In this document: piece by piece, positions 35,587 to 53,011 of the stretch
Layout of the letters: each line of letters starts with the position of its first letter
How positions within the stretch are numbered: position 1 is the stretch's first letter
Source: Candidatus Methanoperedens nitratireducens
GTDB lineage: Archaea > Halobacteriota > Methanosarcinia > Methanosarcinales > Methanoperedenaceae
DNA length: 64,000 nt
Direction: 5' to 3'
NCBI RefSeq assembly: GCF_000685155.1
Contig: NZ_JMIY01000002.1
Location: forward strand, 57,618 to 121,617
Notes under the pieces: model-generated
The model's input: only the letters and a program-made list of their open reading frames with translations
Database searches by the model: none
What the model was told of the DNA's origin: nothing
Program-made: the position numbers and the translations under genes

Positions 35587-35622
35587 TATACAATTTATAT
35601 TCCAGGTTTGATCGGTGATCAT

Positions 35623-35973: not shown

Positions 35974-37048
35974 GTTCTATGCGAAGAACTTCATTAACGT
36001 GATTCTGTAATGGTTGGCTTCGAGTTAATATTGTTATTTTATCGCTTTTCTTGAGCATGAAGTTCTGACCTGACATTCTCAATGTATTGATAAGGGTGTC
36101 ATTAATTGTATTGATAACGCCCTCGTCATTGAACTTATGATATATCTTTATCTCATTATCGTTATATTCTATTTTATGAATTAATCCACTCGTCTTACAT
36201 ATTTCCTCAATAAATTCGGTGATATGCTGATAATCGGTATCCTCAATTGACACGCTATATACGGTAGAAATGAGATTGTTTAGCTGCTCGGAAAAATCAT
36301 GGTATTTTAAAAGCTGAAGTAAAATGTCCCTGCTTATAATGACATCTTCGTAGTGGTCCGCTTTGATGATACGGGTGATGTTCCTCCAGAATTGGAAGTT
36401 ACTCTGGATCTCATCTAAGATCAACTGGTTGTATCCGAAATGTTCCATTACTGACCTGTGTGCCTCTTCTTCATTGTTGCATTGCTCGTAGTCGATTATG
36501 AAGAGGTTTGGTGATTCCATAAACTTTCTAATCTTCAATTTGATGGGGTGATGGGCCAGCATGCATGAGTAGATAACGACCGTACTTTTCAGGTGATCTG
36601 GATCTTCAGCTTCGAATGAGATACGGACATTCTTGAGATCAGGACTCATCTCTATATTCTGGCTTATTTTGTATCCAAATATATCGACATGTTTATTGAT
36701 CATATTGATATAGTCATTAAAAGAGAAACTGTCCATTCCCAGCAGCTTTGTATACTTCGCCATGATGACCCTGAAGATACCCAGAGGAGGCACCCCCAGG
36801 TTCGTTTTAAGCAGCCACCTGATCAGAGGAACAGGCATAAGCACTGCTATCCTGTTTTCAATAATTTTATTTCTTAGCATAATTATCTTCTGCTGATCAC
36901 CGGTCATACTGTTCATATTTGTCTCTTGTCTGTAATGGTCAATCAGATGTCTTAGGGCCAGACTAAGATTATTATCACTGGCGTTTAAAAACGGCTTCAA
37001 GGTTTCCAAGTCACTCTTATCTATAGAAATTGTCCTGCGAATTTTCAT
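35966..37048 (-). CDS. Ribbon-helix-helix regulator with a large ligand-type domain
   Basis: The first 45 residues (MKIRRTISIDKSDLETLKPFLNASDNNLSLALRHLIDHY) have the beta-strand/helix/helix pattern of a ribbon-helix-helix DNA-binding domain. The remaining 315 residues are of unknown fold with many charged and aromatic residues and no membrane segment. It is transcribed divergently from the 14-gene biosynthetic run, and a perfect palindrome lies between them. It is the likely regulator of that cluster and of itself. I do not recognise the C-terminal domain. Confidence 0.75.
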   Translation of the reverse strand: MKIRRTISIDKSDLETLKPFLNASDNNLSLALRHLIDHYRQETNMNSMTGDQQKIIMLRNKIIENRIAVLMPVPLIRWLLKTNLGVPPLGIFRVIMAKYTKLLGMDSFSFNDYINMINKHVDIFGYKISQNIEMSPDLKNVRISFEAEDPDHLKSTVVIYSCMLAHHPIKLKIRKFMESPNLFIIDYEQCNNEEEAHRSVMEHFGYNQLILDEIQSNFQFWRNITRIIKADHYEDVIISRDILLQLLKYHDFSEQLNNLISTVYSVSIEDTDYQHITEFIEEICKTSGLIHKIEYNDNEIKIYHKFNDEGVINTINDTLINTLRMSGQNFMLKKSDKITILTRSQPLQNHVNEVLRIEPI

Positions 37049-37115
37049 ATCTCCATTCTCCGCAATATTACACCTACGCTCTATTTTTGGACATTAATCG
37101 CTACAGGTTTATAAG

Positions 37116-37129
37116 TATTACGCGTAATA
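37116..37129. promoter_or_regulatory. Perfect 14-base palindrome, candidate operator
   Basis: The sequence tattacgcgtaata is its own reverse complement. The half-site cgtaataaa recurs at 37123-37131 and 37165-37173, 42 bases apart, about four helical turns. It lies between the ribbon-helix-helix gene and the biosynthetic cluster. Cooperative binding by that regulator is inferred. Confidence 0.6.
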
Positions 37130-37252
37130 AAATTAGTATAGAATTAATATCTGAATGATGTTTTCGTAATAAATTGTTCATAATTAATTTTAAGTATAGT
37201 ATGATTTCATCGGCGAGCCTGGCATACATCAAAAAATGTTTAGGTGGTAAAA

Positions 37253-38275
37253 ATGGCAGATATCATACTGGTTGGCTGTGGCAAAGCAGGTTCAATTCAT
37301 TGCAAGTGCTATGCTAAGCTCAAAGATTTAAATGTCAATATCGTGGCACTGGTTGACAGCAATCCGGCTCGTCTCAAAAGGTTCCATTCACTGTATAAAA
37401 CATTCAACGAAGGAGAAGATCCACTGGCGGCGATTTCTCTTGAAGAAGTTTCCAGACAAATGGACATAGGAGACGCTATTATAGACCTGTGTGTACCCAA
37501 CGATGTTCACTACCAGTGTGCCAGGGAAGCAATTGATCTAAGCGCAAAAAAAATAATAATCGAAAAACCAATTGCAAATAGTATAACAGATGCCAGAAAA
37601 ATAGAAATGCTCAATGCGAGTATCGCTATTACAGAAAATTATGTCTACTCAAAAGTGACAGAACAGCTGAGAGAAACAATAGAAAAATACCAGCTTAAGC
37701 CCAAGTTTGTCAGAACAGAATTTTCAAAAGACAGGCGCAATGATACAACAAAAGGCAGGGGCTTCCTCAAAACAGGCCCTCCCCATGTATTTACAGTAGA
37801 AATACCGCATCAGATTGCAATAGTAAATTATCTGTTCGGCAGTCCCATAGATAATTTTGGAGCATGGTGTGAGGATATGGTAATGGGAAACAGGCGGTTC
37901 TATGAGCATGGTGAAGGTGCTATAACTCTCCTCCACGAGAACGGGACGATCTCCTATAATTTTTCAAGTCTTGATGGCTACAAGCACTTGCCTCTAAGAC
38001 ACAGGAGCATTATGCTACATTGCGAGGGTGGTATAAGGGTAAGTGCCCACTATCCGGCTGGTGGGGACGATGCATTATTTGGCGCTATTACCGTTTTCGA
38101 AAACAACCACATCAGTGAGAAGCTTGTGATTCCTGATGATACAATGGTTGAAACTCTTAAAATGATAATCAAGCGATTTGAGGAAAGTGAAGAGCAAATA
38201 ACTGATGCGACTTTTGGGCGTGAAATTATGGAAAAAATTAACGAGAGTATCCATTTAGCTAGAATAAATGGGTGA
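37253..38275 (+). CDS. Gfo/Idh/MocA family dehydrogenase
   Basis: The 340-residue protein has an N-terminal Rossmann motif ILVGCGKAGSIHCKCYAKL and the family motif IIIEKPIANS (about residues 97-106), then a C-terminal alpha/beta domain with HEN and YPAGGDDALFG segments. These enzymes use NAD(P) to oxidise or reduce hydroxyls on sugars, inositols or cyclic alcohols. The ATG at 37253 follows GGTGG. It opens the biosynthetic cluster and is followed by the cupin gene in 5 bases. Confidence 0.88.
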   Translation: MADIILVGCGKAGSIHCKCYAKLKDLNVNIVALVDSNPARLKRFHSLYKTFNEGEDPLAAISLEEVSRQMDIGDAIIDLCVPNDVHYQCAREAIDLSAKKIIIEKPIANSITDARKIEMLNASIAITENYVYSKVTEQLRETIEKYQLKPKFVRTEFSKDRRNDTTKGRGFLKTGPPHVFTVEIPHQIAIVNYLFGSPIDNFGAWCEDMVMGNRRFYEHGEGAITLLHENGTISYNFSSLDGYKHLPLRHRSIMLHCEGGIRVSAHYPAGGDDALFGAITVFENNHISEKLVIPDDTMVETLKMIIKRFEESEEQITDATFGREIMEKINESIHLARING

Positions 38276-38279
38276 AATT

Positions 38280-38645
38280 ATGAAAAATGAAGAACAGATT
38301 ATTGTCAGGAAACTAAAAGAAACACAGATGGAAAGAGGATCATGCGGGATGAGGAGGCGTCTCATTACTGATAAAGACTGCGATACAGTGGCATTCTCGC
38401 ACCTGAAAATCTCGGATGCAAAGAAACACTATCATGAAAAAACCACAGAGTTTTATTATGTACTGAAAGGCGAAGGGCTGCTTGAGGTCGACGGTGAGTC
38501 GATCTCTCTCACTGAAGGCACACTCGTGATGATAAGACCTGGTATGGCACACAGGGCAGTTTCCAGCGGAGGGCTGGAGGTGCTGATAGCGATGACACCG
38601 CCACTGGCAGAAGCAGGCGATTATGTCAGCAGTAAAGGAGGATAA
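38280..38645 (+). CDS. Cupin-domain protein
   Basis: The 121-residue protein has the two cupin metal motifs: HYHEKTTEFYYVLKGEG (His, His, Glu) and GTLVMIRPGMAHRA (His). It should bind a metal ion and may be a small-molecule isomerase, oxygen-independent lyase or sensor. It sits between the dehydrogenase and the flavoprotein genes, 2-4 bases from each. Confidence 0.85.
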   Translation: MKNEEQIIVRKLKETQMERGSCGMRRRLITDKDCDTVAFSHLKISDAKKHYHEKTTEFYYVLKGEGLLEVDGESISLTEGTLVMIRPGMAHRAVSSGGLEVLIAMTPPLAEAGDYVSSKGG

Positions 38646-38647
38646 AT

Positions 38648-39991
38648 ATGAGAGCTGTAGTCGTAGGAGGTGGGATCGGAGGACTGTCCTGCGCGATAGG
38701 ATTGATGGATTGCGGTTTTGACGTTTCGCTTTTTGATAAAAACAATAAGCTCGGCGGTGTTGCTCGTACACTTCATAACACTGATTATATATGTGATACC
38801 GGTCTGCATTATTTCTTTGAGCATTATACTGAATGTATGAGTTTGCTGAAAAAATGCAACGCAGATAAGGAGATTTTTTGGATAGAGGACAGGATGCTCT
38901 TTATGAGGGCTGACAGTAAAAAAGGAATGTACTCCCATCTACCGTTGCCGGGTGCATTGAGGGGTGCATCCGCCATTGCAAGATTCAATTTGCTCAATTT
39001 CAGCGACAGACTGAAGCTTCTTGGCTTATTTGCAAAAATGGCATTCTTAAAAGATGAACAGCTATCTGAGATGGATAATAAAACCCTTGAAGAATGGGTT
39101 CTGGAAAATGGGGGGAATGCGGAAATAATATCGAATTATTTCGACCCTATCTCCAGGTCACTGACATTTATGGGTGCATCTGAAATCTCAGCTCAGACCA
39201 TAATCGTCTGGTTCAATGGAATTCGCAAACAGAACAAAATACGATTTGGCATCGCGGTATCAGGACTCAGCGAATCTGTGATAGAACCTCTGAAAAATTA
39301 CCTTCTCTCCAGGGGATGTAAAATTTACACAGGATGTGAGATTAAAAGCATCACGATTAACGACGGAAAGGTGCATGGCGTTAACTTCAAGGATAGTTTC
39401 GAGCAGCGTTTTATTGATGCAGATGTAGTAGTACTGGCAGTTTCACCGGCTCAGGTGAATAAGATTCTCAGGAACAGTCCCACGGCAGGAAAACAATCTC
39501 TTATACAGATGGACGAGGGCACACCTGTGATTGTTGTTAACCTGCTTCTGTCATCGAATTTAACGGATGAAAAAATAGTGATGTTCGGCGTGAACACATG
39601 TTTTAATATTTTTATGGAAATTACAAACGTTTCCAGGAATTATTCTGAGAACCATTCACTTGTTACGCTGATCATGAACTCAACTGAAGATCAGCTTCAT
39701 ATGAGCGAGGGGGAAATCCAGAGTATTGTATTAAATGACCTTGAGTCTTCACTGGGCTATTCGATCAGAGAAAAAATCGCTGACTGCGAGATTTTCAGAC
39801 TGAACGATGTCGTGACAAAACAGGTTCCAGGGCATTCCAGGTCAAGAGTGGATAATAAAACAGACATTGAAGGATTATATCTATCAGGGGATTATACCGC
39901 CGGGATTCAACCGTCGGGTATGAATGCTTCGGTACATAGTGCCAATACATGCGTTTTAAAAATTAAAAACGATTTCAGGGTGGTTGCATGA
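38648..39991 (+). CDS. Phytoene-desaturase-like FAD oxidoreductase
   Basis: The 447-residue protein begins MRAVVVGGGIGGLSCAIGLMDCGFDVSLFDKN, an FAD-binding Rossmann motif, and ends with GLYLSGDYTAGIQPSGMNASVHSANTC, the C-terminal FAD motif of the amine oxidase/carotenoid desaturase group. A mid-domain (about 100-260) would hold the substrate. It could desaturate, isomerise or reduce an isoprenoid or ring substrate. It overlaps the next gene by 4 bases. Confidence 0.85.
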   Translation: MRAVVVGGGIGGLSCAIGLMDCGFDVSLFDKNNKLGGVARTLHNTDYICDTGLHYFFEHYTECMSLLKKCNADKEIFWIEDRMLFMRADSKKGMYSHLPLPGALRGASAIARFNLLNFSDRLKLLGLFAKMAFLKDEQLSEMDNKTLEEWVLENGGNAEIISNYFDPISRSLTFMGASEISAQTIIVWFNGIRKQNKIRFGIAVSGLSESVIEPLKNYLLSRGCKIYTGCEIKSITINDGKVHGVNFKDSFEQRFIDADVVVLAVSPAQVNKILRNSPTAGKQSLIQMDEGTPVIVVNLLLSSNLTDEKIVMFGVNTCFNIFMEITNVSRNYSENHSLVTLIMNSTEDQLHMSEGEIQSIVLNDLESSLGYSIREKIADCEIFRLNDVVTKQVPGHSRSRVDNKTDIEGLYLSGDYTAGIQPSGMNASVHSANTCVLKIKNDFRVVA

Positions 39992-40494
39992 ATCCTCTTT
40001 TCAGGTATTATTTAAAGATCTTTGGGCTGCCTACCAGAATGAAATACGAGAAATCTCTCCGAGAATGGATGGGACTTACAGCCAAAACCACAGCGTATCT
40101 TTACAATAAGTACGGGGCTGAGGAGGCTGCAAACTTCTGGAAATACAATATAGAAGTAATGAAACCCTTCTGGGAAAAACTCGGGATTGAGGGCACTCAG
40201 GGATTTACTGATGCGATGGTGGCTCTTGCAGATGTTATGAAAAACGAAATCGTAGTTTTAGAGAATAGCAAATCACAGGCATCAGGAATTGTTTTAAAAT
40301 GCGGGATAAAGGACGCGGTTAAAGAGTACCACCACCTGAAACTTCCAGAAACATTTCCATGTGAGATCTGGTGCGAACCTTTCTGGAAACGGATTTCTAT
40401 GTCTCTGGGACTTGAAAGTACAAGGGAAGTCCTGGAAAAGGGATGCAGATTTACTGTAATACAAAAGGAGCATGTTGATGGAGCCAGAAATTAG
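39988..40494 (+). CDS. Small protein resembling an L-2-amino-thiazoline-4-carboxylate hydrolase-type domain
   Basis: The 168-residue soluble protein has a C-terminal half with spaced cysteines (KCGIKDAVKEYH, CEIWCEPFW, GCRFTV). This pattern loosely recalls the small hydrolase/V4R-like ligand-binding domains. I cannot assign a function. It overlaps both neighbours: the flavoprotein by 4 bases and the Fe-S protein by 17, so its translation is coupled. Confidence 0.6.
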   Translation: MNPLFRYYLKIFGLPTRMKYEKSLREWMGLTAKTTAYLYNKYGAEEAANFWKYNIEVMKPFWEKLGIEGTQGFTDAMVALADVMKNEIVVLENSKSQASGIVLKCGIKDAVKEYHHLKLPETFPCEIWCEPFWKRISMSLGLESTREVLEKGCRFTVIQKEHVDGARN

Positions 40495-41512
40495 AGATGC
40501 AGTAAAATGCTCTGGATGCAACGTATGTTTGAATGAATGCCCGGTATATGAGTATTACCACTGTGAAGCCTTCGGGTCAAGAGGCAAAATGGACATGCTG
40601 CGACTATGGCAGTCCGGACTTATTAAAATAGAGGATATGCAGAACATTTTTGAGGCATGTACAATATGCAAAAGATGTGAGAATGTATGTACACAGGGCA
40701 TTGAAACATCGCCGATATTTAGAGATATGCGGCACCATCTGATCCAAAATAAGATCAAAAATCCAGACATCGAAGCTGTCAAGGTTCGTATCAATAAAAC
40801 CGGGAGCCCTTATAACAATGATCGTACAATCATAGTGCCGGATGGTTATACTGTCAACCGTAAGGATACTCTTTTATGGCTGGGCTGTACAATCAGGCAT
40901 TTAGGGCTTGCTGAGAGATGGCTGAAATTCCTTGTCAGAATTAATTATATGCCGGTAATCCTTGAGACTGAAAATTGCTGCGGATCTTTTCTTAATAACT
41001 GTGGTTACAGCGACGATTACAGGAAGGTAATGGATAAGAACATAGAGATACTCTCGCAGTACAAGAACATAATAGCCCTCTGTCCTTCCTGTTATTCAGC
41101 TTTTAAAAATGATGGGCGGTTAAACAACGTATTTTTTATAACTACAGTTCTGGACAGGTTCAAAGACAGACTTCACATCTCAAAATCCTTAAAAAAACCT
41201 GTTCTTCTTTTTGAGCCATGTCATTTGAGAAATAGTTTTCCCGGAGAAAGATATACAGATGTAATCCAGGAAATCTTCAATAAAGATAAGTATGATTATA
41301 TATTGAGCAGCGATATATTTGGAGCAAAATGCTGTGGAAGCGGTGGAGGTTTATTTATATCTTCCTCAGACATCCCTGTGAAAAATACAAGGAGAATACT
41401 TGAGGAAACTGACGCTTGCAGCGTTGTTACATTATGTCCTTTTTGTTTTAGATCTTTTAGCAACGTCACAGATGATGTAAAACAGGTGGTGGATGTATTT
41501 TTAATAAATTAA
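40478..41512 (+). CDS. HdrD/GlpC-type Fe-S oxidoreductase
   Basis: The 344-residue protein has two N-terminal 4Fe-4S motifs (CSGCNVCLNECP and CTICKRCENVC) and two C-terminal cysteine-rich CCG domains (ENCCGSF with CPSC, and EPCHL with GAKCCGSGGG and CPFC). This is the architecture of the electron-transfer partner in glycolate/lactate oxidases and in heterodisulfide reductase D. The FAD oxidase gene downstream is the probable partner. ATG at 40478 is preferred, eight bases from GGAG. Confidence 0.88.
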   Translation: MEPEIRDAVKCSGCNVCLNECPVYEYYHCEAFGSRGKMDMLRLWQSGLIKIEDMQNIFEACTICKRCENVCTQGIETSPIFRDMRHHLIQNKIKNPDIEAVKVRINKTGSPYNNDRTIIVPDGYTVNRKDTLLWLGCTIRHLGLAERWLKFLVRINYMPVILETENCCGSFLNNCGYSDDYRKVMDKNIEILSQYKNIIALCPSCYSAFKNDGRLNNVFFITTVLDRFKDRLHISKSLKKPVLLFEPCHLRNSFPGERYTDVIQEIFNKDKYDYILSSDIFGAKCCGSGGGLFISSSDIPVKNTRRILEETDACSVVTLCPFCFRSFSNVTDDVKQVVDVFLIN

Positions 41513-41526
41513 AAAATATCTGTACA

Positions 41527-42900
41527 GTGTGGGATGAAGAAAAAATCCGACTCGTATATGAGAGCGATACTGGTCGTCTCAAAAGCGGGATTCCCGATAT
41601 TGTTGTGATTCCCAGGACCGCGGAAGAGGTCAGCAGCATATTGAAGTTCGCCAATGAAACAAAAACAAAGGTGACTGTAAAGGGAGGTGGAACTACCTGG
41701 GAAGGTGAAACTGTTGCTGACGGCGGTATACTGCTGGATATGAAGGGCATGAACAGATTAATTGAAGTAAATCCTGCGCAAGGCTGGATTACAGCAGAAG
41801 CTGGAATAACATGGATCAAATTATATAGCGAGCTTAAAAGAAAGGGCATGACGTTCAGAGGTGCTCCGGACAATCTTGTCTCCACGCTTGGAGGTGCTAT
41901 CTCCACCAGCGGCTATAGCTATCACTGCACAAAATATGGAAGTATAGCGGACCAGGTTCTGCAGCTTGAGGTCGTATTGCCCGGCGGAGATATAATAAAC
42001 TGCGGATCAAATAAGATCGGCGGAAGGGTCTACGGTGCAGATCCGCTTCCACTCTTCAAGACCTCGCTCGGTACCTTCGGGATTATCACGAAAGTGACTC
42101 TGAGGGCTTACCAGTACACCAGTCACAATCCAGCATATATTACAGGGTTCATATATGATGATATCGAAAAGGCTGTCAGTGATCTCCCGGTAATCGCAGA
42201 AAAATGCAGCCCGGATATCCTCTTTTTCGGTTCAAATACCAGAGAATTTACGATGAAGTACAGGGAAGTGCTGATCGAAGAAACAAAAAAACTTGGATGT
42301 TCATACTCCAGAAAAATCCCATATCTTGTTCAGCTTTACTCAAATTATGCCAACCTGGTGAAAAAAGAAATGCCAGAGCGAATCAATTTTATTTTCACAG
42401 GCTATGAGGGGACAAAAAAGGGGACAAAAAAATTAAGCTCTGCAGCAAAAGGAAAGAGGTTTATTGAGTATTCTGTCGAGGATGAATACATAGTAAGAGG
42501 TAAGGCTCTGTGGAGGATGCTTACCTTAGGTGGGCATGTTCCAGCGCTATGTGATTGTGTCGTACCCAGAGAGAGAGCCGGAGAAATTATCCGGTCTGGT
42601 ATTGAAGAATTTGAGAAAACCGGTTTTAATCCTGTGGTTTATGGACTTTTACTTCCAGGACACTTTTCGATAGGGATTGGTTTTTACACCAGCGTGCAGC
42701 GTTCTCAGATCCAAAAGTATGAGAACGTGAGGAGAGAGATTTACGAGAAGACATTAAGCCTTGGAGGAACAGCTTACAAATACGGTGGTTTAAGAAAAAG
42801 TGTTGCAGAAAGATCGATAGGTAGTGGGTTTTACCTTATGGATCGTTTTAAAAAATATATTGATCGAAATAATATTTTGAATTGTGATGTTCTATTCTAA
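41527..42900 (+). CDS. GlcD-like FAD-linked oxidase
   Basis: The 457-residue protein has a PCMH-type FAD domain: VVIPRTAEEVSSILKFANE, VKGGGTTWEGETVADGGILLDM, and GAPDNLVSTLGGAISTSGYSYHCTKYGSIADQVLQLEVVLPGG. A C-terminal linked-oxidase domain follows. It probably oxidises a 2-hydroxy acid or similar group and passes electrons to the Fe-S protein upstream. The frame is open 10 or more codons before the GTG with protein-like residues (NKLKNICTV), so an ATT start near 41497 is possible. Confidence 0.85.
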   Translation: MWDEEKIRLVYESDTGRLKSGIPDIVVIPRTAEEVSSILKFANETKTKVTVKGGGTTWEGETVADGGILLDMKGMNRLIEVNPAQGWITAEAGITWIKLYSELKRKGMTFRGAPDNLVSTLGGAISTSGYSYHCTKYGSIADQVLQLEVVLPGGDIINCGSNKIGGRVYGADPLPLFKTSLGTFGIITKVTLRAYQYTSHNPAYITGFIYDDIEKAVSDLPVIAEKCSPDILFFGSNTREFTMKYREVLIEETKKLGCSYSRKIPYLVQLYSNYANLVKKEMPERINFIFTGYEGTKKGTKKLSSAAKGKRFIEYSVEDEYIVRGKALWRMLTLGGHVPALCDCVVPRERAGEIIRSGIEEFEKTGFNPVVYGLLLPGHFSIGIGFYTSVQRSQIQKYENVRREIYEKTLSLGGTAYKYGGLRKSVAERSIGSGFYLMDRFKKYIDRNNILNCDVLF

Positions 42901-42918
42901 AAAACAGGAGGAAATAAA

Positions 42919-45699
42919 TTGTTAAATAAAAACCATAATAAAAAACGAATAGATGTAGAGCACAGGGGCAGGGTAATATTGCTCGTTGTGCTGGTAGTTC
43001 TTGGATTTTCAGTCGTGTCGTCTGCGACACCGATGTCCAGGATACTGCTGGACCCGCCGGTAATTGAAGTCCCTGGAGGCGAAACGGTGAACCTTGAATT
43101 TAACATCTATGGTGTCAACGTTGACCCGTACATGCCAGGACTTTATACTTTTCAAATCGAGGACAATGAGAACACTCCGATCAACGATCTGGATATAATA
43201 AAAGATTACAGTGTAAAACAACCTATGATGGTCGGACCAATGGTCGGTCGTCTCTCTACTCAGACCACTACATTAATTATAACAACCAATAGTAACGCAG
43301 CCCAGGGTACATACAAACCAGTCTTGAAAGTGGTAAACCCCATAAGCATGGCTACCCTTGAAACAATGGAATTTACAATAATCTCCAGTAACCGCTTTCC
43401 AATACAGAAATTTGAAAACATAACCTACGACTTCATGAACATCCAGTTTTTGATGGCTCCAACCAGGGAACTATACAAACATGTACCTGCTGATTTCCAG
43501 GTCATAACTACAGCCAATCCGGATGTTGGTATTTTACTTCCTATAACCGTAAGTGTAACAAATTCACCATTCGGTCCTTACAGGGCTGTATTCCTTATGG
43601 TACCGGTTTTACAGTACTCAACTGCGCCGGTGGGTGAAGAATGGTTCTACCCCATATACACATATACAGATAACCCTGCTTTTAAGGAATATATACAGCG
43701 TGAATGGAATACCGACGAGATTGAACTTGCCGAAATAGATACAAAGCAGAACATTTACAACGATACATCAAGAGATACATGCGTAGGGTGCCACGTTTTA
43801 TCTAACCCCGGTGCAAACCGTGTAGTCGAGGACCGCGCTGTTTTGAAGGACTCAAGCGGGATTCTGATGGAGATATCAGGGAAATCCAGAGGGAAAGATG
43901 GCGGCAATGCCGGAATATATCCTATATATGAAAAGTTCGTCCACAGCGCCTATCACGCTATCGATAAGAATAACCTGAGCGTGATGCAGCTTGACAGGTC
44001 GCATACGGAAATGCAGGCGCTCCAGAATTATGACGTGAAGGTCAAGAAGAATTCACGCATCTGGAATCTGATAGGAGGGAACGATCCAAATTTCTGCAAT
44101 AACTGCCATACAGATAATAGCGGAATAAAGGATCATAAATCACCTGCAAAACAAAAAGTATCGATAAATAATTACTACCCCCATGTAATAAGGAGCGTGT
44201 CAGAGATAGATGTAAAAGAGACACAGTTGCTCTACAGGGTGACGAGGACGCCGATACCCATGCCTCTGTTCGCCGAGCAGTATAATTTCACTTTCATGGA
44301 TTCCCAGGTGTTCGAAGTGCCGTCATCCGAGCTTGTTAAATATATCCCGCCTGAGTTTCCGATTGAGGAGGTAAGACCGGGTATAGCTGCTGTCAGGGTA
44401 GTTATCGCATATGAGGACAATCCTATATGGGGACCGTTCAGCGATCTCCAGGTGCTCGTGCCAATACAGGAGATATATACTACTGACCCTGAGCACTACT
44501 ACATTCCCATCACAGTCAACAGCTATTACGTCATCGAGGATTATATCGATAACGAGATAGCGCTTGAGGGCTCAAGAAGGCTGGGATACCCGGTGCTTCC
44601 CGCAAACATCACCCATGAGCTGACACAGGTCAATGATACGTTCTACATGCTCAAGACGGTGGTGCGCGACGACAGCGGTGTACTGTATTCAACGGAAGGA
44701 AGCTATACAAAAGCGTACCCGATCATAAACGAAATGATAAAGAGGTTCGTCAAGGATACCGTCAGGCTGGATACTCTGAACCAGGAGACCTTCGTCCCTG
44801 TAGAGAGGCCTGCAATAACCATAAGAGAGGGCTCAGCACTGTGGAACATCACAAAAGGAACATCAAGCTACAGCATGCAGCAGAGCTCGGTGTTCATGAA
44901 CAACTCGGATCTCATACTGGTATTCAGGTACAGAAAGCCCGAGCTGCCTCCGACAGGAAATAACCTTGTGGAAAAGGCGCTATCTCTGGACCAGAAGTAT
45001 GATTTCAATTACATACAGATGTACGGGATGCCGACAGATATTCTCTCAAATTACATTCCTGCTGACAAGGTTCTGCTTGAGCCCATCCCCGGCATAGGGA
45101 TATCCGGAACGATGATCGGACACGTTAATAGCTCGCCCCTTGGTGCATACAGCTTCATGTGGGTGTTCGTATCCATAAACCAGCCCACAGAGGTGCTCCT
45201 GCCGCAGGATCCAGGGATGAATTATCTGTTAAGGGTATATACAGACAGCGAGATATATAAGAGGGAGCTGGACAGAGTATACGATAATTCCCTCGATGTG
45301 AGGCTGGCAAAGTTCGACTTTGAGCAGGAAATAGAGCAGCCAGCGTGGTGGAATATATCTGTCAGGCAGTACGTAAATATAAGCGACGCCAGCGGCATAA
45401 TCTTTGAGCTTTCGACGAACGCGAGCAGACCGATGCCGTCCCACGAGGTACACTACATGTACAGGGACATAGACGCAGACAGATCCGTTATTCTGCGGGA
45501 TAATTTTACCACCCTGCAGGTAATATCCCAGCCGTATGATCCTGTCAGGATCAATGTCGGATCTGACGACCTTGCCATGATCATAGGGAAAGAACCGATG
45601 GTGTTCGTGGGAGCGGCAGAACTTGTCTCTGAGGAGATACAGGATTTCTTTATTCTAACGAACCAGAGTACAACGGCGAAGAAAGGAAAGAAGAAGTGA
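42919..45699 (+). CDS. Secreted dihaem protein with three acetoacetate-decarboxylase-like repeats
   Basis: The 926-residue protein starts with a signal segment (about residues 17-36) and a beta-sandwich-like region to about 160. Three related repeats follow, near 165-450, 453-690 and 692-890. Each has a core like the acetoacetate decarboxylase fold (VPSSELVKYIPPEF, PGIAAVRVVIAY, NPIWGPFSDLQVLVPI), ending GYP in copy 2; the catalytic Lys of that family is not there. Copy 1 alone has two haem sites, C288-H292 (CVGCH) and C393-H397 (CNNCH). Each copy also has a DSSGILMEIS-like strand. The family match is by pattern. A TTG start follows AGGAGG; no C-terminal anchor is seen. Confidence 0.82.
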   Translation: MLNKNHNKKRIDVEHRGRVILLVVLVVLGFSVVSSATPMSRILLDPPVIEVPGGETVNLEFNIYGVNVDPYMPGLYTFQIEDNENTPINDLDIIKDYSVKQPMMVGPMVGRLSTQTTTLIITTNSNAAQGTYKPVLKVVNPISMATLETMEFTIISSNRFPIQKFENITYDFMNIQFLMAPTRELYKHVPADFQVITTANPDVGILLPITVSVTNSPFGPYRAVFLMVPVLQYSTAPVGEEWFYPIYTYTDNPAFKEYIQREWNTDEIELAEIDTKQNIYNDTSRDTCVGCHVLSNPGANRVVEDRAVLKDSSGILMEISGKSRGKDGGNAGIYPIYEKFVHSAYHAIDKNNLSVMQLDRSHTEMQALQNYDVKVKKNSRIWNLIGGNDPNFCNNCHTDNSGIKDHKSPAKQKVSINNYYPHVIRSVSEIDVKETQLLYRVTRTPIPMPLFAEQYNFTFMDSQVFEVPSSELVKYIPPEFPIEEVRPGIAAVRVVIAYEDNPIWGPFSDLQVLVPIQEIYTTDPEHYYIPITVNSYYVIEDYIDNEIALEGSRRLGYPVLPANITHELTQVNDTFYMLKTVVRDDSGVLYSTEGSYTKAYPIINEMIKRFVKDTVRLDTLNQETFVPVERPAITIREGSALWNITKGTSSYSMQQSSVFMNNSDLILVFRYRKPELPPTGNNLVEKALSLDQKYDFNYIQMYGMPTDILSNYIPADKVLLEPIPGIGISGTMIGHVNSSPLGAYSFMWVFVSINQPTEVLLPQDPGMNYLLRVYTDSEIYKRELDRVYDNSLDVRLAKFDFEQEIEQPAWWNISVRQYVNISDASGIIFELSTNASRPMPSHEVHYMYRDIDADRSVILRDNFTTLQVISQPYDPVRINVGSDDLAMIIGKEPMVFVGAAELVSEEIQDFFILTNQSTTAKKGKKK

Positions 45700-45703
45700 A
45701 GTT

Positions 45704-45728
45704 GAGGGCTTTTTGCCCTCGATTTTTT
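45704..45728 (+). terminator. Hairpin plus T-run between cluster genes
   Basis: gagggc (45704-45709) pairs with gccctc (45715-45720) over a five-T loop, then a T run follows at 45723-45728. This looks like an intrinsic terminator or attenuator. It lies 4 bases after the dihaem protein gene and before the 4-helix membrane protein gene, so it may reduce expression of the later cluster genes. Confidence 0.6.
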
Positions 45729-45749
45729 ATGATATGAAGGAGGATAAAA

Positions 45750-46172
45750 ATGGAAATAACGCCTTATAAACTGCATGCGATTTTCGGACTTGTCCTGATA
45801 CTGGCAGGATTTGTTTTCGATTTTGCCTTTGTCACAAGGAATTTTACGGAAGCGTTTAAAAGCGACCCGGCATCATATCTTAACTCGTGGGGAAAATACG
45901 TTTATGAGCTTGTTAAATTCTATCTCATTGTCCTGGGCTTTTTGAACATCTCACTGGCTCTGCTGATTTCCAGGTCGGGCAATCCCGGACAGATAGAATG
46001 GATTATTTTCAGCCTGATGGCGATAGGTTCCGTACTTTTCATAATCGGAGGGATCTGGGAAGGACTGATAGGGCCCATCTTTAAAATGGAGCCGCCATGT
46101 TATGTTTTAGGAATAGGGTTAACAGGCATCCTGCTCAGCCTTGTTCTTAAGATATACTCGTTCGTGAGGTGA
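45750..46172 (+). CDS. Four-helix membrane protein in the biosynthetic cluster
   Basis: The 140-residue protein has four hydrophobic segments (about 8-30, 49-70, 80-103 and 115-136). I do not recognise the family. A GAAGGAGGATAA ribosome-binding site precedes the ATG. The next gene starts 5 bases after its stop, so they form a pair. Confidence 0.7.
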   Translation: MEITPYKLHAIFGLVLILAGFVFDFAFVTRNFTEAFKSDPASYLNSWGKYVYELVKFYLIVLGFLNISLALLISRSGNPGQIEWIIFSLMAIGSVLFIIGGIWEGLIGPIFKMEPPCYVLGIGLTGILLSLVLKIYSFVR

Positions 46173-46177
46173 GATAG

Positions 46178-46846
46178 TTGGATAGCCGCTCCTCCAACTG
46201 GCTTATTGCAGGGTTCATTATATGGATAATCACAGTCCCTCTGCTCACCGGGATTTCTGAGAGTCCTGCAAAAACCATGGGTATAATAGTTATCTGGCTC
46301 CTTTTCCCGCTCTTATATGGTTTTATGAGCCGTGACTGGAGAGGTATAGGGTTTGCAAAAGAAAATATATGGAAACCAGTACAGGGGATGCTTATAGCGA
46401 CAATTGTTTATTCAGTGGTACGCAACCTTTTGATAGTATTTATTCCTGTCAGCATTCCCTATACAGCGGCAAGTGCTATACAAGTGGCAGAGTTGTTAAA
46501 GCAAGGGCAGTTCGGAAACATCACCGGGTCTTTTTCACAGCTCTTTCCACTGATGCTGTTTATGACCTTTATAGCAGCGTTCTCCAATGAGCTATTTTAC
46601 AGGGGGTTCCTGTTTACCCGACTCAGACAGTTAATCGACTGGAAGCTTGCTGCAGTAATATCAGCACTTCTATTCGGGATTTATCATTATTTCAACGCGG
46701 GAATCAGTGGATTTGTGATGGGAGTGATCGTAAGTCTTGTATCAGGTGCTCTTATGCAGAGATACAATAACATTATTGCACCGGCGCTGTTCCATTTCCT
46801 GCAATATATCTCGACTATAATGGTATTTTATTATTTCGTAATATAG
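46178..46846 (+). CDS. CPBP-family membrane protease/prenyl-protein-type protein
   Basis: The 222-residue protein has about six helices with CPBP motifs: SNELFYRGFLF (usual EExxYRG with the first Glu replaced by Asn), FGIYHYF (FxxxH) and PALFHFLQ. CPBP (Rce1-like) proteins are intramembrane proteases or maturation factors, sometimes linked to prenylated substrates. The missing first Glu could alter activity. It starts with TTG. The next gene follows in 8 bases. Confidence 0.82.
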   Translation: MDSRSSNWLIAGFIIWIITVPLLTGISESPAKTMGIIVIWLLFPLLYGFMSRDWRGIGFAKENIWKPVQGMLIATIVYSVVRNLLIVFIPVSIPYTAASAIQVAELLKQGQFGNITGSFSQLFPLMLFMTFIAAFSNELFYRGFLFTRLRQLIDWKLAAVISALLFGIYHYFNAGISGFVMGVIVSLVSGALMQRYNNIIAPALFHFLQYISTIMVFYYFVI

Positions 46847-46854
46847 GAGGTACA

Positions 46855-48003
46855 ATGGCAAAAGTTTCAATTTTAAGGTGTAAAGACTATGAACATGAGC
46901 ACGTTAAAAGTGCTATACTTGAGAGTCTTGAATTAATCGGTGGGATCAAAAAAGTAGTAAAGACAGGCGACAATGTGTTGCTCAAGGTAAACGTGATCGT
47001 GGGCTTCCCTCCGGAGCGGGCAGCTACGACGCATCCCTCAGTTGTCAAAGCGATGGTGGAGATCGTAAAAGAGGCGGGAGGGAATCCCTGGGTTGGAGAT
47101 AGCTCCGGTGCTTATGGTTTTACTGCACAGTCTCTTGAGTTGTCTGGAATCAAGAGGGCTGTAGAGGAATCAGGGGGCAGGCTGATAAACTTTGAATCAA
47201 CTGGCACGTATTCAGTGAAAATCGAGGGCACGGTTTTGACGGCAGCAAATATAGCAAAACCAGTAATTGATTGCGATGTCCTTGTTTCTTTGCCAAAACT
47301 GAAAACTCATATGATGACAAAGTATACAGGTGCTGTAAAGAATTTTTATGGTGTACTGCCAGGGCCCAGCAAATCAATGATTCACAGGCAGGCCCCAACT
47401 GAAGAGAGCTTCAGCCACGCTGTAGTGGATATATATTCTGCTCTGAAACCAAAACTCGCAGTTATGGACGGCGTAATCGGTATGGAAGGAGAAGGTGCAA
47501 CGAATGGAACCCCGGTAGCATCCAGCGTTATTCTATCAAGCATGGATTGTGTCGCTTTAGATGCTGTATCTTCGGAAGTTATAGGATTTCATCACAAAGA
47601 CATTCTGACCACACGTTTCGCACATGAACGTGACCTCGGTGTTGGTGAACTTAACCAGATAGAGATTTTAGGAGAACAAATTAGCGATGTAAAGATAGAC
47701 TTTAAAAAATCCAGGCACATCTATTACAAGTTGCCAAAATTCTTGAGTAATTTTGTGTTCAAGAATGTAGAGAATATATCAAAAGTAGAGATATCCCCGG
47801 ATGAATGCAAGAAATGCAAAATCTGTTTAAATAGCTGTCCTGCATCAGCAATTACGCTTGAGTCCCGTCCGTATATAGATCAGAAGAAATGCATCAAATG
47901 CTACTGCTGCCATGAATTGTGCAGGAATGGCGCTGTGAAACTGAAGACATCTTTTCTGGGAAAACAATTACTGAAAGGCTTGATGTACCAGTCAGAAAGG
48001 TGA
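46855..48003 (+). CDS. DUF362 protein with C-terminal 2x[4Fe-4S] ferredoxin
   Basis: The 382-residue protein has the DUF362 core (LLKVNVIVGFPPERAATTHP, GGNPWVGDSSGAYG, SLPKLKTHMMTKYTGAVKNFYG) and two cluster motifs, CKKCKICLNSCPASA (about 318) and CIKCYCCHELCRNGA (about 346). An iron-sulfur electron input to an unknown reaction is likely. A TAGGAGGTAC ribosome-binding site precedes the ATG. Its stop overlaps the GTG start of the aldehyde oxidoreductase, so the two may work together. Confidence 0.88.
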   Translation: MAKVSILRCKDYEHEHVKSAILESLELIGGIKKVVKTGDNVLLKVNVIVGFPPERAATTHPSVVKAMVEIVKEAGGNPWVGDSSGAYGFTAQSLELSGIKRAVEESGGRLINFESTGTYSVKIEGTVLTAANIAKPVIDCDVLVSLPKLKTHMMTKYTGAVKNFYGVLPGPSKSMIHRQAPTEESFSHAVVDIYSALKPKLAVMDGVIGMEGEGATNGTPVASSVILSSMDCVALDAVSSEVIGFHHKDILTTRFAHERDLGVGELNQIEILGEQISDVKIDFKKSRHIYYKLPKFLSNFVFKNVENISKVEISPDECKKCKICLNSCPASAITLESRPYIDQKKCIKCYCCHELCRNGAVKLKTSFLGKQLLKGLMYQSER

Positions 48004-49883
48004 TTTTAACGACGCTAATCAGAACTGCAGCGAGAATAGATCTATCAAGAAAAAAAATACTAAGGCAATCCTTAGACAAAGCGCTTGTAGCCAGATTTGT
48101 CGGGGGCCGTGGGATTAATTCTGCAATACTGTACGAGGAAGTGTCCGCCGGCATAGACCCGTATTCGCCGGAGAACAGGATAATCTTCGGAACAGGCCCT
48201 TTAACAGGCACGCTCTCTCCGGGCTCCGGACGATATACAGTGACCTCCAAATCCCCGCTCACAGGCATCCACGGCGACTCCAATGCAGGCGGTTTCTGGG
48301 GACCTGAGTTGAGATTCGCAGGGTATGATCATCTGGTTATCCAGGGTAGAGCAGAGAAGCCCGTGTATCTGTGGATTAATGACGGGACTATAGAGATCAG
48401 GGACGCATCACATATCTGGGGGAAGACGACATGGGAGACAGAGCTGATGATAAAAGAAGAGCTTGAAGACCCTGATATCCAGGTCGCAAGCATAGGACCG
48501 GCTGGCGAGAACCTTGTAAGGTATGCCTGCATAATCAATAACCTCTGGAGGGCTGCCGGCAGGACTGGCATGGGAGCTGTCATGGGCTCCAAGAACCTGA
48601 AAGCCATTGCGGTCAGGGGAACAAAGGAGGTGAGTGTTGAAAAACCAGATGAATTAATGGAATATGTTAGAGAACTGAATAATCTGATTTTAAAAGACCC
48701 TGCCTACAGACTATGGTCTAAATATGGCACTCCAGGTCTTATCAATCCCGCCAATATGCTCGGCATCCTGGTTTCTGAAAATGACAGGCGTTCCACGTTC
48801 GCAGATGCGGACAAGATCAGTGGGGAAACTTTTTGCGAAAAATATGCGGTCAGATCGAATGCATGCTTCAACTGTCCCATGCACTGCGGCCACTTTTACG
48901 TTGTCGATAGTGAAAATATAATCTCTGGAGGTGGACCTCAGTTCGCTGCTCTTGCAAATCTGGGATCAAGATGCAATAATAGCGATCTTGAATCCATCCT
49001 GAGAATGAATACAATGTGCAATCAGCAGGGATTAGATGTCTGCTCTGCAGGGGTTGCTCTTTCTTTTTCCATGGAATGCTTTGAGCGGGGTATAATCACC
49101 TGCTATGATACGGACGGACTGGAGCTTGACTGGGGAAATTCACAATCAATGATAACAGTGCTTGAGAAGATCTCATGCAGAGAAGGATTTGGTGATCTCC
49201 TGGCAGAGGGTGCGTGGCGTGCAAGCCAGATTATCGGAAAAAACTCCCAAAAGTATGCCATGACCATAAAAGGCGCCGATAGCCCAGACTATGATCCAAG
49301 GGCATTGAAAGGCTGGGGACTGGCATACGCTGTATCCACAAGGGGTGGGGACCATCTTCGGGCACTGCCTGCATTAGAATTGTTAAATGCCCCAGAAGAA
49401 TACAAAAAATTGGAATTGCCCGCGATTGGTGATAGGTTCTCTTACGACAAGAAAGCTGTCATGGTAAAATGGCACGAAGATGTTCGTGCTATCGCAGACT
49501 CGCTAGAAATATGTAAATTCTTAACAAGAACCACACTTCTATCTCCAGAATATCTGGTAAATCTGCTCAGGCTCGTTACTGGTATTACAATGACGTCCGA
49601 TCAGTTGCTCAGAGCGGGGGAGAGGACAATTAATATTGAGCGCATGTTCTGCGTAAGAGAAGGTATTTCCCGTCAGCATGATACTTTGCCGGAACGATAT
49701 AAAAAAGAGCCCTTACCAGATGGCCCTGGAAAAGGAGAAACAATTAATATCGAAAAAATGCTGGATGAATATTATACAGAGCGGGGATGGGATTTGAAGA
49801 CCGGAATTCCAACAATCAAAAAATTAAACGAAATTGGTCTAAATAAGATCTCTGAAAGCTTTCAAACAAAGGGATTAATATGA
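48000..49883 (+). CDS. Tungsten/molybdenum aldehyde ferredoxin oxidoreductase
   Basis: The 627-residue protein belongs to the aldehyde ferredoxin oxidoreductase family, which uses tungstopterin to convert acids and aldehydes or to reduce other substrates such as aromatic acyl groups. The N-terminal domain has RFVGGRGINSAILYEE and GTGPLTGTLSPGSGRYTVTSKSPL; the cluster ligands are CFNCPMHC and the C in DSLEICKFL. Length is standard. Start is GTG overlapping the DUF362 stop. It is coupled to UbiA (4-base overlap). Substrate is unknown. Confidence 0.92.
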   Translation: MILTTLIRTAARIDLSRKKILRQSLDKALVARFVGGRGINSAILYEEVSAGIDPYSPENRIIFGTGPLTGTLSPGSGRYTVTSKSPLTGIHGDSNAGGFWGPELRFAGYDHLVIQGRAEKPVYLWINDGTIEIRDASHIWGKTTWETELMIKEELEDPDIQVASIGPAGENLVRYACIINNLWRAAGRTGMGAVMGSKNLKAIAVRGTKEVSVEKPDELMEYVRELNNLILKDPAYRLWSKYGTPGLINPANMLGILVSENDRRSTFADADKISGETFCEKYAVRSNACFNCPMHCGHFYVVDSENIISGGGPQFAALANLGSRCNNSDLESILRMNTMCNQQGLDVCSAGVALSFSMECFERGIITCYDTDGLELDWGNSQSMITVLEKISCREGFGDLLAEGAWRASQIIGKNSQKYAMTIKGADSPDYDPRALKGWGLAYAVSTRGGDHLRALPALELLNAPEEYKKLELPAIGDRFSYDKKAVMVKWHEDVRAIADSLEICKFLTRTTLLSPEYLVNLLRLVTGITMTSDQLLRAGERTINIERMFCVREGISRQHDTLPERYKKEPLPDGPGKGETINIEKMLDEYYTERGWDLKTGIPTIKKLNEIGLNKISESFQTKGLI

Positions 49884-50755
49884 AAAAATTTTTGATATAT
49901 TTAAAAGCAACCCGCCCTGAGATATTCATTATGGACTGGTCAATGATATGGGTAGCTTTTTTTCTCGTTGAAACTGAAATCAACACATACTTCATTATTA
50001 CAATTTTGATTCTCATGTTGATATCCGGGCCTTTTATCCATGGTGCAGTTGATATAATAAATGATTATTTCGATTACAGGATAGATGTTAAAAATAAGAG
50101 AACGGATAAGTTGCTTGTAACCGGAGAAATAACCGCCAGCGAAATGCTGTATCTTACTGTAGCGCTTCTTATTATCGGAAATTTTATGGCTCTCCTGCTG
50201 TTGCCGCCTCTTTTTGCTTTCCTTATGATTCTAAGTTCAATCATTGGTGTGCTGTATTCTGTCCCACCAGTTAGATTCAGAGAATATTATCCTTTGTCTG
50301 CGATACTACCTTCGATCCCATATTTTCTTATCTCGCCGATAGCATGGTACGTTTTCACCGGTGCCGTACCAGATAAAGGGTTATTGATAGGATTAATTCT
50401 CGCTGTTAATATGTTCCTGGGGCTAACTCTGAAAGATATTTATGATTATCTGGGAGACCTGCAGCATGGTGTAAAATCGATTGTATACTGGTTAAATCCG
50501 GTTAAAGCAAGGTATTTTGTTATTCTGGTCACATTTGTGAGCCCAAGCCTGATCGTATTAGGCATACTTTTAAATGTTTTTAGCAATTTCGGGTTATTGG
50601 TGGCGTTTTCTCAGTACTTAATAACGCTTTTATCATCAAAATTCATTATTTCTGGAGAATGGAGTCCGGGTATATCGTATAAACTATTTTATCCCACCTA
50701 CAGATTGGGGTGTTTTATTCTGCTCTCTTTATTAGGATTATTAAAATTGATTTAA
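49880..50755 (+). CDS. UbiA-family prenyltransferase
   Basis: The 291-residue membrane protein has about nine helices with both metal-binding motifs of the family: NDYFDYRID (about 61-69) and KDIYDYLGD (about 187-195). It moves a prenyl chain from a prenyl diphosphate to an acceptor such as a quinone ring, haem or glycerol phosphate. The gene lies between the aldehyde oxidoreductase and ferredoxin genes, with the prenyl synthase nearby, which points to a prenylated product made in this cluster. Acceptor is not known. Confidence 0.92.
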   Translation: MKKFLIYLKATRPEIFIMDWSMIWVAFFLVETEINTYFIITILILMLISGPFIHGAVDIINDYFDYRIDVKNKRTDKLLVTGEITASEMLYLTVALLIIGNFMALLLLPPLFAFLMILSSIIGVLYSVPPVRFREYYPLSAILPSIPYFLISPIAWYVFTGAVPDKGLLIGLILAVNMFLGLTLKDIYDYLGDLQHGVKSIVYWLNPVKARYFVILVTFVSPSLIVLGILLNVFSNFGLLVAFSQYLITLLSSKFIISGEWSPGISYKLFYPTYRLGCFILLSLLGLLKLI

Positions 50756-50767
50756 GAGGAGAGGGAA

Positions 50768-51073
50768 ATGAATAAAAATATATTAATCGTAAATCCAGAT
50801 AGATGTACTGGTTGTAGAACATGTGAAATAGTTTGTCAGATGAAAAATCAATCTTCTTATATAAAAATATTGAAGAATGAGCTTTTCGATGTCAATATTC
50901 CGACAGTTTCCATAAAATGCAATCTGTGTCTGGAAAAGCCTTTGTGTGTAAAGTTTTGTGTAGCGGGGGCATTACAACTCGCAAGTTTTGATGAAGCTGC
51001 GATACTGAGAAAGGAATGTAAGATAGGTCTGTTTCCTGTTCCTTTGACCATTGGGGATAAAAGGGTGAGGTGA
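50768..51073 (+). CDS. 4Fe-4S ferredoxin-like protein, probable AOR electron partner
   Basis: The 101-residue protein has CTGCRTCEIVC (about 13-23) and CNLCLEKPLCVKFC (about 51-64), enough for one or two [4Fe-4S] clusters, followed by a short tail. Similar small proteins serve aldehyde oxidoreductases. It follows UbiA after 12 bases and overlaps the prenyl synthase by 4. Confidence 0.82.
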   Translation: MNKNILIVNPDRCTGCRTCEIVCQMKNQSSYIKILKNELFDVNIPTVSIKCNLCLEKPLCVKFCVAGALQLASFDEAAILRKECKIGLFPVPLTIGDKRVR

Positions 51074-52164
51074 GTAGCTTGAGTATCAGAAGATCCATAA
51101 ATGTGCGACAAATGTTCGGGACTCTGAAGGAAAATGAGTTGCAGAGTAACATAAAAATATCGGGATTCCACCTTGGCAAGATACTGCCAGCTAAATGCGA
51201 ATATCAAAACATGTACTTACAGGAAAAAGCAAAACTTGTGGATAAATCCATACCGAAATTTGTACCAATAACCCATCCAGATGGGATGTATTATGCTATG
51301 CGCCATCTGCTTGATGCTGGAGGAAAAAGGCTTCGGCCTTCAGCATTATTACTGGCTGCTGAAGCAGTAGGCGGCAGAGCAGAAAATGTACTCCCTGCAG
51401 CAGTAGCACTTGAATTGATTCATAATTTCACTTTGATTCATGATGATATCATGGATGAAGCAGACCTTCGAAGAGGTATACCGACAGTTCATAAAAAATG
51501 GGGAGTACCAAAGGCGATCATCGCCGGTGATGCTCTCTACTCCAAAGCTATTGAGGTCTTATCGTCCGCTAAAAGTGAGCCGTCGCATATTATTGAAAGC
51601 ATTGAGCTTCTATCTAAAACCTGCGTCGATTTATGTGAAGGCCAGTGGATGGATATGGATTTCCAGGACAGAAAAGATGTGACAGAGGAGGAATATATGA
51701 CCATGGTGGAGAAGAAAACTGCTGCCCTTTTCGCTGCTGCCTTGAAAATCGGTGCCATATTATCGGGTGCAAAAAGAGACGTATCGCAGGCTTTATGGGA
51801 TTATGGCTTCCTGGCAGGTACAGGATTCCAGATATACGACGATGTGATAGATCTTATAACACCAGAAGAGATACTTGGAAAAGCGCAGGGTGGGGATATA
51901 ATCGAAGGAAAAAGGACTCTTATTATAATAAACGCATTTTCAAAAGGAGTTACCATAGACATACTTGGGAAAAGCAATGCCACAAGAAGCGAAATGTCTG
52001 CAGCTATAACTGCTTTGAAGGAATCAGGTTCAATTGATTACGCTATAAATAAGGCTATCAGCTTTATTGAGGAGGGTAAATCTGTACTAAAGATACTTCC
52101 TAATTCTGAGGCTAAAAAGATGCTTATCGGGCTTGCAGATTATATGATTGCGCGCAAATATTGA
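51070..52164 (+). CDS. trans-Prenyl diphosphate synthase with N-terminal extension
   Basis: The 364-residue protein has the first aspartate-rich motif DDIMD in LIHNFTLIHDDIMDEADLRRG and the second as DDVID, with GGKRLRP for substrate binding. The residue five places before the first motif is Phe, which in archaeal enzymes tends to stop the chain near C20. A 47-residue N-terminal stretch precedes the usual start region (Met48 at 51211); the GTG at 51070 has a GGTGAG ribosome-binding site, while 51211 has none. It makes the chain for the UbiA enzyme in the same cluster. Confidence 0.92.
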   Translation: MSSLSIRRSINVRQMFGTLKENELQSNIKISGFHLGKILPAKCEYQNMYLQEKAKLVDKSIPKFVPITHPDGMYYAMRHLLDAGGKRLRPSALLLAAEAVGGRAENVLPAAVALELIHNFTLIHDDIMDEADLRRGIPTVHKKWGVPKAIIAGDALYSKAIEVLSSAKSEPSHIIESIELLSKTCVDLCEGQWMDMDFQDRKDVTEEEYMTMVEKKTAALFAAALKIGAILSGAKRDVSQALWDYGFLAGTGFQIYDDVIDLITPEEILGKAQGGDIIEGKRTLIIINAFSKGVTIDILGKSNATRSEMSAAITALKESGSIDYAINKAISFIEEGKSVLKILPNSEAKKMLIGLADYMIARKY

Positions 52165-52357
52165 GATTCGACAGCGAGGTAAGAAAATATATCTGTGCTT
52201 TTCTAACCTGAGATTCAGGGTTTTATAGACTACGTTCAAGAAAGAAGCTTATCCAATAGTCTCTTTTTGTTCCTTCGTAAGAACAGTGATTTTACGTTTG
52301 CGCCACAAGACGCCCCCTATAAGTAGAAGAACGCAAATCTATATTGGGGGCCAAGCC

Positions 52358-52972
52358 ATGTCGGTAAATCAGGATGGAGTTAGTGAATTAAGAAGCGTAT
52401 GGATAAAGACTGCTGAACAGCAACTTTTCCATGAGTTAGAAGTAGAATACGGTTTTCCAAGAGCAACCTGCAGATCTCTTATTCAATTAATGCATGAATT
52501 CATCGATCAGAATTATGGCAATCTACGAGATGACAGACAGGTAATCTATCATGCAGTCAGTAAAGATGAACCAGCAGGAAGACAACTGGATAAGATAAAA
52601 GCAGTACCTGTAAGACTTACCGTTTCCCATCCGGATGGTTCTGAGGTTTTGGAGAAAAAAGGGATTCAAGGATTGCGCCAGCATAAGCTGATACGGTTTG
52701 AATCTGAGGCATATGCCCAGAACGGTGTTCTATCGCAAGCTGATGTGGCAGAATTGCTCGGTGTTAGTGTTGGAACTATAGGTAGAGATAGCAGGGAGTA
52801 TCAGATGGAGAACCAGGTAGTGCTGCCTTATAGAGGTACAATACATGATATCGATAGGGCGATTACTCATAAGAGGATCATTATTGGTTATTATCTGAAG
52901 AACTTACCCACTCCTGATATTTCAAGATTCAAATTAGAAATCAGCAGGGCATCATTTGTCGGCATTAGGTAG
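52358..52972 (+). pseudogene. Truncated DUF1670-family protein gene
   Basis: The 204-residue product matches DUF1670 over most of its length, including a helix-turn-helix (GVLSQADVAELLGVSVGTIGRDSREY) and HKRIIIGYYLKNLPTPDIS. The usual following segment (HS..A..RY...F.RV) is not there; the frame runs on with unrelated residues and stops. DUF1670 genes recur in many copies in archaea and may be mobile-element related. It is probably broken. The ATG at 52358 lies just after GGGGG. Confidence 0.6.
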
Positions 52973-53011
52973 GCTATAGAGCTTTATTCTTTTCACTCAT
53001 AGAAGACTACT

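Follow-up and report, generated by a model that had tools for sequence, protein, structure and literature searches.

Electron carriers join intracellular methane oxidation to external acceptors in the Methanoperedenaceae, with menaquinone as the presumed carrier of this family. The futalosine pathway is found throughout the family except in its most basal member (PMC7327174), and methanophenazine is reported to be absent from 'Ca. M. nitroreducens' enrichments (PMC5244752). Here we describe a locus of Candidatus Methanoperedens nitratireducens within a window of 64,000 nucleotides (contig NZ_JMIY01000002.1, positions 57,618 to 121,617; assembly GCF_000685155.1), to which all coordinates below refer. 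It consists of a 14-gene cluster (37,253–52,164) with a geranylgeranyl diphosphate (GGPP) synthase, a UbiA-family prenyltransferase, an aldehyde:ferredoxin oxidoreductase (AOR) and other redox proteins, and it is contained in a 19.3 kb island of 19 genes (33,755–53,014). We read this as a lineage-specific, recently acquired island encoding a pathway for a geranylgeranylated (C20) compound together with a secreted haem protein that handles the compound, a reading that we hold with confidence and doubt in about equal measure.

The 14 open reading frames (ORFs) of the cluster are all verified as present and are all transcribed from the plus strand, with intergenic spacing of -23 to +50 bases throughout, the last gene excepted; 137 bases precede that gene if it starts at the conserved Met at 51,211, not at the GTG at 51,070. 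The Pfam and NCBIfam profile searches by which families are assigned here, together with the ORF check, agree with the first-pass annotation's account of 14 same-strand genes with short gaps or overlaps and of the families they belong to. The arrangement resembles that of an operon and is no accident of gene order. That annotation had taken the cluster as the unit, and its genes are real, but the true unit is larger. Compared by blastn with the closest congeneric genome (G024), the window shows 93–96% identity up to 33,754 and again from 53,015, and in that genome some 150 bases separate the two flanks where the island would sit. In most of the other congeners read, the OB-fold gene at the left border (33,383–33,760) directly adjoins the ABC transporter gene that lies 3' of the cluster in the window, a gene present in all 31 of 31 congeneric genomes. 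The segment 33,755–53,014 was thus most likely inserted in this lineage, and because of its borders and the empty site in congeners, its genes appear to travel together. The island ends show no tRNA gene and no recognisable integrase, and the only terminal repeat is a 10-mer attributable to chance.

No orthologue of any cluster gene except the GGPP synthase was found in the relatives searched; the genes are absent there and not scattered, and it was scattering that had been proposed as evidence against a dedicated pathway. The UbiA protein has no orthologue in 60 relatives or in 393 genomes of the phylum, where the best matches have about 25–34% identity; the AOR has none, with a best match of 47% identity in 295 genomes of the phylum and of 51% among the matches listed in a scan of species genomes. 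Viral contigs hold no relatives of five cluster proteins, and plasmids give only weak matches to the UbiA protein, mostly ChlG, and none to the flavoprotein described below. A neighbourhood of UbiA, GGPP synthase and AOR was not found at the best 80 AOR loci among the matches listed (GTDB species genomes), none of 20 longer stretches surrounding a match to the AOR or the UbiA has a comparable gene set, and a literature search returned nothing on clusters of AOR with UbiA or of DUF362 with prenyltransferases.

An island seen in one genome only, with a slightly lower G+C content (0.414 versus 0.450), might be foreign DNA joined into the contig as an assembly chimera. This is very unlikely, as the shift in composition is slight, the 546 kb contig is one of 10 in the assembly of a 3.2 Mb genome of high completeness, and the flanks are syntenic both left and right. 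Moreover, in a tree the island GGPP synthase lies inside the clade of the family (100/100) and with the sequences of the genus (86/86), and from this phylogeny at least the GGPP synthase gene would derive from a Methanoperedens-like genome.

The GGPP synthase (51,211–52,164, in an ORF opening at the GTG at 51,070; PF00348, E 4e-73) is the second copy in the genome and is 80.6% identical to the housekeeping enzyme. Both have a Phe five residues before the first Asp motif, which the genome's two other prenyl synthases do not; Phe at this position is established as restricting the chain made by archaeal GGPP synthases to C20. Assignment of the island synthase as a C20-type and not a C25-type enzyme is well supported by these sequence features, and because it is GGPP-like by identity, tree position and this Phe, the island would supply its own GGPP. 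An accessory prenyl cassette of another kind is present in two congeners (G021, L241:6163-11646; G017, L242:8918-14302). It combines a diverged GGPP synthase (66% against the island copy in a search) and a divergent UbiA with a FAD protein resembling geranylgeranyl reductase, a DUF116 protein with a ferredoxin domain and a terpene-cyclase-like protein, and cassettes for prenyl compounds seem to recur within the genus.

The UbiA-family gene (49,880–50,755; PF01040, E 1e-29) codes for a protein in which both Asp motifs are intact, judging from its sequence (N61-D65-D69, and DIYDYLGD at 186). Its best NCBIfam models are BchG/ChlG, far under the cut-off (65.5 bits versus 212.3 for BchG), its best PDB relatives are chlorophyll a synthases (E 2e-5), and it scores 35 bits against the DGGGP synthase model, where the cut-off is 296. 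In a tree with seven paralogues from its own genome and reference sequences, it lies among long branches outside the DGGGP synthase and MqnP groups; in approximately unbiased (AU) tests, which reject none of these joins firmly, the p values are 0.066 for DGGGP synthase, 0.11 for MqnP/UbiA and 0.49 for BchG. Grouping with DGGGP synthase or MenA had been named as an argument against a dedicated pathway; the tree separates the protein from the DGGGP synthase and MqnP groups, but the AU tests do not reject its union with E. coli MenA, nor do they tell BchG from MenA. The tree therefore points to a distinct enzyme, separate from these two groups, with a weakly placed deep position. In all, the genome has eight UbiA-family genes (L001–L008, on contigs C1, C2, C4, C5 and C7), of which L004, L007 and L008 stand together as a divergent group close to NCBIfam PRK13591.

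The island could serve to modify membrane lipids, with an unusual ether- or ester-linked C20 lipid or a prenylated sugar as the product, no redox carrier, and oxidoreductases that shape only the head group or chain. The UbiA protein scores nearest to the ChlG and DGGGP-synthase-type models, the island GGPP synthase duplicates a lipid-supply enzyme, and the accessory cassettes of G017 and G021, with their GGPP synthase, reductase-like, UbiA and cyclase-like genes, recur in the genus, all of which suits a lipid; a plain lipid would not readily account for a protein with two CxxCH motifs or for the several proteins of low-potential electron transfer, and we give this explanation a modest chance.

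The protein with the two CxxCH motifs (42,919–45,699) is 926 residues long, and had been labelled a secreted dihaem protein. The signal helix at its N-terminus and the motifs (at residues 288 and 393, using all four of its Cys) agree with that label, which nevertheless misses most of the protein: an N-terminal segment is followed by three tandem repeats of about 200 residues that match one another far above shuffles (z 8.7–21.9). By sequence the protein has no match in Pfam, NCBIfam or the PDB, and no relatives were found in 197 genomes. An AlphaFold2 (AF2) model of the three repeats has a pLDDT of 65 and a pTM of 0.68, and in a Foldseek search of the PDB with this model all 19 of the 19 chains under E 0.001 belong to the acetoacetate decarboxylase (ADC) superfamily. 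Within the reach of these searches, the predicted triple ADC fold with two CxxCH motifs is a new architecture. Repeat 2 reads GYPVL where the PKK with the catalytic Lys of ADC is expected, with the placement made by eye, and we infer that the protein is an extracytoplasmic, ligand-binding and electron-carrying protein and not a decarboxylase.

Among the remaining cluster genes are those for several putative redox proteins. The AOR-family gene (48,000–49,883; PF01314/PF02730), a tungsten enzyme by family, probably starts at the GTG at 48,000 rather than at 47,919, and its product has AFOR_N and AFOR_C domains. When aligned to 1aor it keeps the [4Fe-4S] cysteines (three clustered Cys and the fourth Cys) and the equivalent of the active-site His448 of P. 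furiosus, with Glu311 replaced by Gln and the active-site Glu313 by Ala; among 129 AOR relatives, 109 have Glu at the second of these positions (E313) and none has Gln at the first (E311). Because of these replacements, the chemistry may differ from plain aldehyde oxidation. A subgroup of AORs elsewhere (L074, L042, L043, L046 and L048) has GPDYD and Asn against the GPEYE and His448 of P. furiosus, pointing to another active-site variant. Upstream of the AOR is a DUF362 protein gene (46,855–48,003; PF04015, E 5e-58) with a C-terminal 2x[4Fe-4S] ferredoxin domain (motifs at residues 318 and 346), and downstream of the UbiA gene is one for a 101-residue 2x[4Fe-4S] ferredoxin (50,768–51,073), recognised by its motifs, which resembles small Fe-S proteins encoded beside AORs elsewhere. 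In the HdrD/GlcF/TfrB-like protein (40,472–41,512; PF02754, PF13183) two CxxCxxCxxxC ferredoxin motifs and two CCG motifs are all intact, and the GlcD-type FAD oxidoreductase that follows (41,527–42,900; FAD_binding_4 with FAD-oxidase_C; PF01565, E 6e-40) is presumed to be its partner. An arabinose pathway of the DprE1/DPPR-synthase type was considered and rejected, as the C-terminus of the GlcD-type protein is FAD-oxidase_C and the UbiA protein has no DPPR model match.

The left part of the cluster codes for a Gfo/Idh/MocA-family dehydrogenase (37,253–38,275; PF01408, E 2e-11), a cupin (38,268–38,645; PF07883, E 2.5e-13) and a flavoprotein with the FAD amine-oxidase fold (38,648–39,991; PF01593, E 3e-32), which is nearest to the HpnE and plant-type phytoene desaturase models, under their cut-offs (TIGR03467, 162 bits versus 283), and whose next best match within the family has 27% identity. 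A 168-residue protein (39,988–40,494) has no family in profile searches, and its single-sequence model (pLDDT 44) is too poor for use. Between the 926-residue protein and the DUF362 protein are a 140-residue membrane protein with about four predicted transmembrane helices (45,750–46,172) and a member of the CPBP (Rce1-like) intramembrane protease family (46,178–46,846; PF02517, E 2e-17).

A GlcD-type protein with a CCG protein is the usual glycolate or lactate oxidase pair, and the cluster could accordingly combine two functions: catabolic oxidation of an aldehyde or a 2-hydroxy acid (AOR and ferredoxin, GlcD and CCG proteins, MocA), delivering electrons to a secreted cytochrome, and an unrelated pair of GGPP synthase and UbiA. 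In keeping with such a division, no UbiA or prenyl synthase gene neighbours those AOR relatives for which the surroundings were compared, and the GGPP synthase gene has its own 137-base leader; yet the UbiA gene overlaps the AOR gene by 4 bases and sits between it and the likely ferredoxin, and the AOR is without the active-site Glu of aldehyde oxidisers. We regard two functions as having a rather small chance.

Known prenyl pathways do not call for this gene set. Housekeeping UbiAs similar to DGGGP synthase and MqnP, the other prenyl synthases and the MqnA/D homologues are all located elsewhere in the genome, so the cluster set is surplus to known needs. The combination of prenyl synthase, UbiA and redox genes had suggested a methanophenazine-like or new quinone-like lipid as a candidate product; of these, methanophenazine is not borne out. 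The methanophenazine-using Methanosarcinaceae (family f5, an identity that we infer) have no orthologues of the cluster, with a best UbiA of about 30% identity, a best AOR of 44% and no 926-residue protein, and the synthase is of the C20 type, 80.6% identical to the GGPP-type housekeeping copy, and not of the C25 type. There are no mqn genes in the cluster, with MqnA/D homologues on contigs C5 and C1 and the MqnP-like UbiA on C5, which argues against the futalosine pathway to menaquinone. Biosynthesis of methanophenazine or of a menaquinone variant is thus scarcely credible. A carotenoid or hopanoid-squalene route was also rejected, as the genome has no squalene or phytoene synthase (PF00494, SQS_PSY, absent here and present in 7 of 14 controls).

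The preferred reading, a pathway for a C20-prenylated compound, would proceed as follows. The island GGPP synthase makes the all-trans C20 diphosphate, the well supported step, and the ChlG/DGGGP-synthase-like UbiA, by its family, would move the C20 chain onto an acceptor at the membrane. The nearest characterised UbiA enzymes prenylate the oxygen of a carboxylate or alcohol, and for this reason an O-prenyl product is slightly favoured. The MocA dehydrogenase, cupin, desaturase-like flavoprotein, GlcD/CCG pair, and AOR with ferredoxins may form or adjust the head group, with electron transfer that would be of low potential judging from the families. Outside the membrane, the 926-residue protein could bind the compound in its ADC-fold cavities and pass electrons through two c-type haems. 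The operon layout, a GGPP synthase of its own by an intact UbiA, the redox enzymes and their common island fit the earlier proposal of a dedicated prenyl-compound cluster. The product may be redox-active, with a role as a redox carrier possible. The further proposal of a new, horizontally acquired C20-prenylated membrane redox carrier, beside menaquinone, that docks with the dihaem triple-ADC-fold protein and exports electrons has a slim chance.

Several points weigh against a single prenyl pathway. Its main weakness is that one example is known, with gene order and co-inheritance as the whole case for joint function; the searches gave no further copy by which co-function could be checked through cross-species conservation. 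The cluster has no ring-forming, methyltransferase or hydroxylase gene, and its acceptor therefore has to be supplied from outside it. The AOR and the GlcD/CCG pair also suit catabolism, the flavoprotein, MocA dehydrogenase and cupin are assigned at the family level, and with its 137-base leader the GGPP synthase gene may be a separate unit.

The island has five genes outside the cluster. At the left are genes for two small proteins of no family with about three predicted transmembrane helices each (34,083–34,469, 128 residues; 35,608–35,973, 121 residues), which flank a DUF362 protein gene (34,519–35,586; PF04015, E 2e-25) whose product has no ferredoxin domain, no cysteine motif and only three Cys; these are transcribed rightwards. 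They are followed by the only leftwards-transcribed gene of the island (35,966–37,048), for a 360-residue protein with no Pfam, NCBIfam or PHROGs match at E<0.001, and at the right island end is a rightwards DUF1670 protein gene (52,286–52,972; PF07900, E 1e-48). Three DUF362-type genes thus lie within 18 kb, with the third (29,809–30,867, recognised by eye) located outside the island and conserved in G024. Just upstream of the island, a 143-residue ORF (32,950–33,381) between an FBPase-like gene (31,841–32,953) and the OB-fold gene is absent from G024, where those two genes adjoin. Farther upstream there are two genes for secreted CxxCH proteins (15,231–16,178 and 16,917–18,164), followed by an archaeosortase-like pair (18,409–19,982), the latter recognised by eye.

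If the preferred reading is true, acquisition of a prenyl operon with a secreted dihaem protein would suggest that gene transfer can enlarge the carrier pool. Should the product turn out to be a lipid, the island would still offer a clean contrast of presence and absence among otherwise syntenic genomes of about 95% identity, and the triple ADC-fold protein with two CxxCH motifs is unusual in its own right.

The prenyl synthase with a UbiA recalls the proposed supply of methanophenazine by the geranylfarnesyl diphosphate (GFPP) synthase of Methanosarcina, but the cluster enzyme is of the C20 type and methanophenazine users do not have the cluster. The enzyme shares the residues ahead of its first Asp motif with archaeal GGPP synthases of the IdsA type, and differs in being a second copy located in an island. 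The UbiA protein shares its fold, both Asp motifs and its best NCBIfam and PDB matches with the ChlG/BchG and DGGGP synthase branch, but at about 25% identity it falls far below every equivalog cut-off and stands apart in the tree. The AOR resembles that of P. furiosus in its AFOR domains, cluster Cys and His448 equivalent, and differs at E311 and E313, where neither change is common among the 129 relatives, and in its gene neighbours. The 926-residue protein shares its predicted fold with the ADC superfamily (3cmb, MppR, Swit_4259), the sole PDB family under E 0.001, but by an alignment made by eye it has no Lys at the presumed catalytic position, and it is set apart by three tandem domains, predicted export and two CxxCH motifs.

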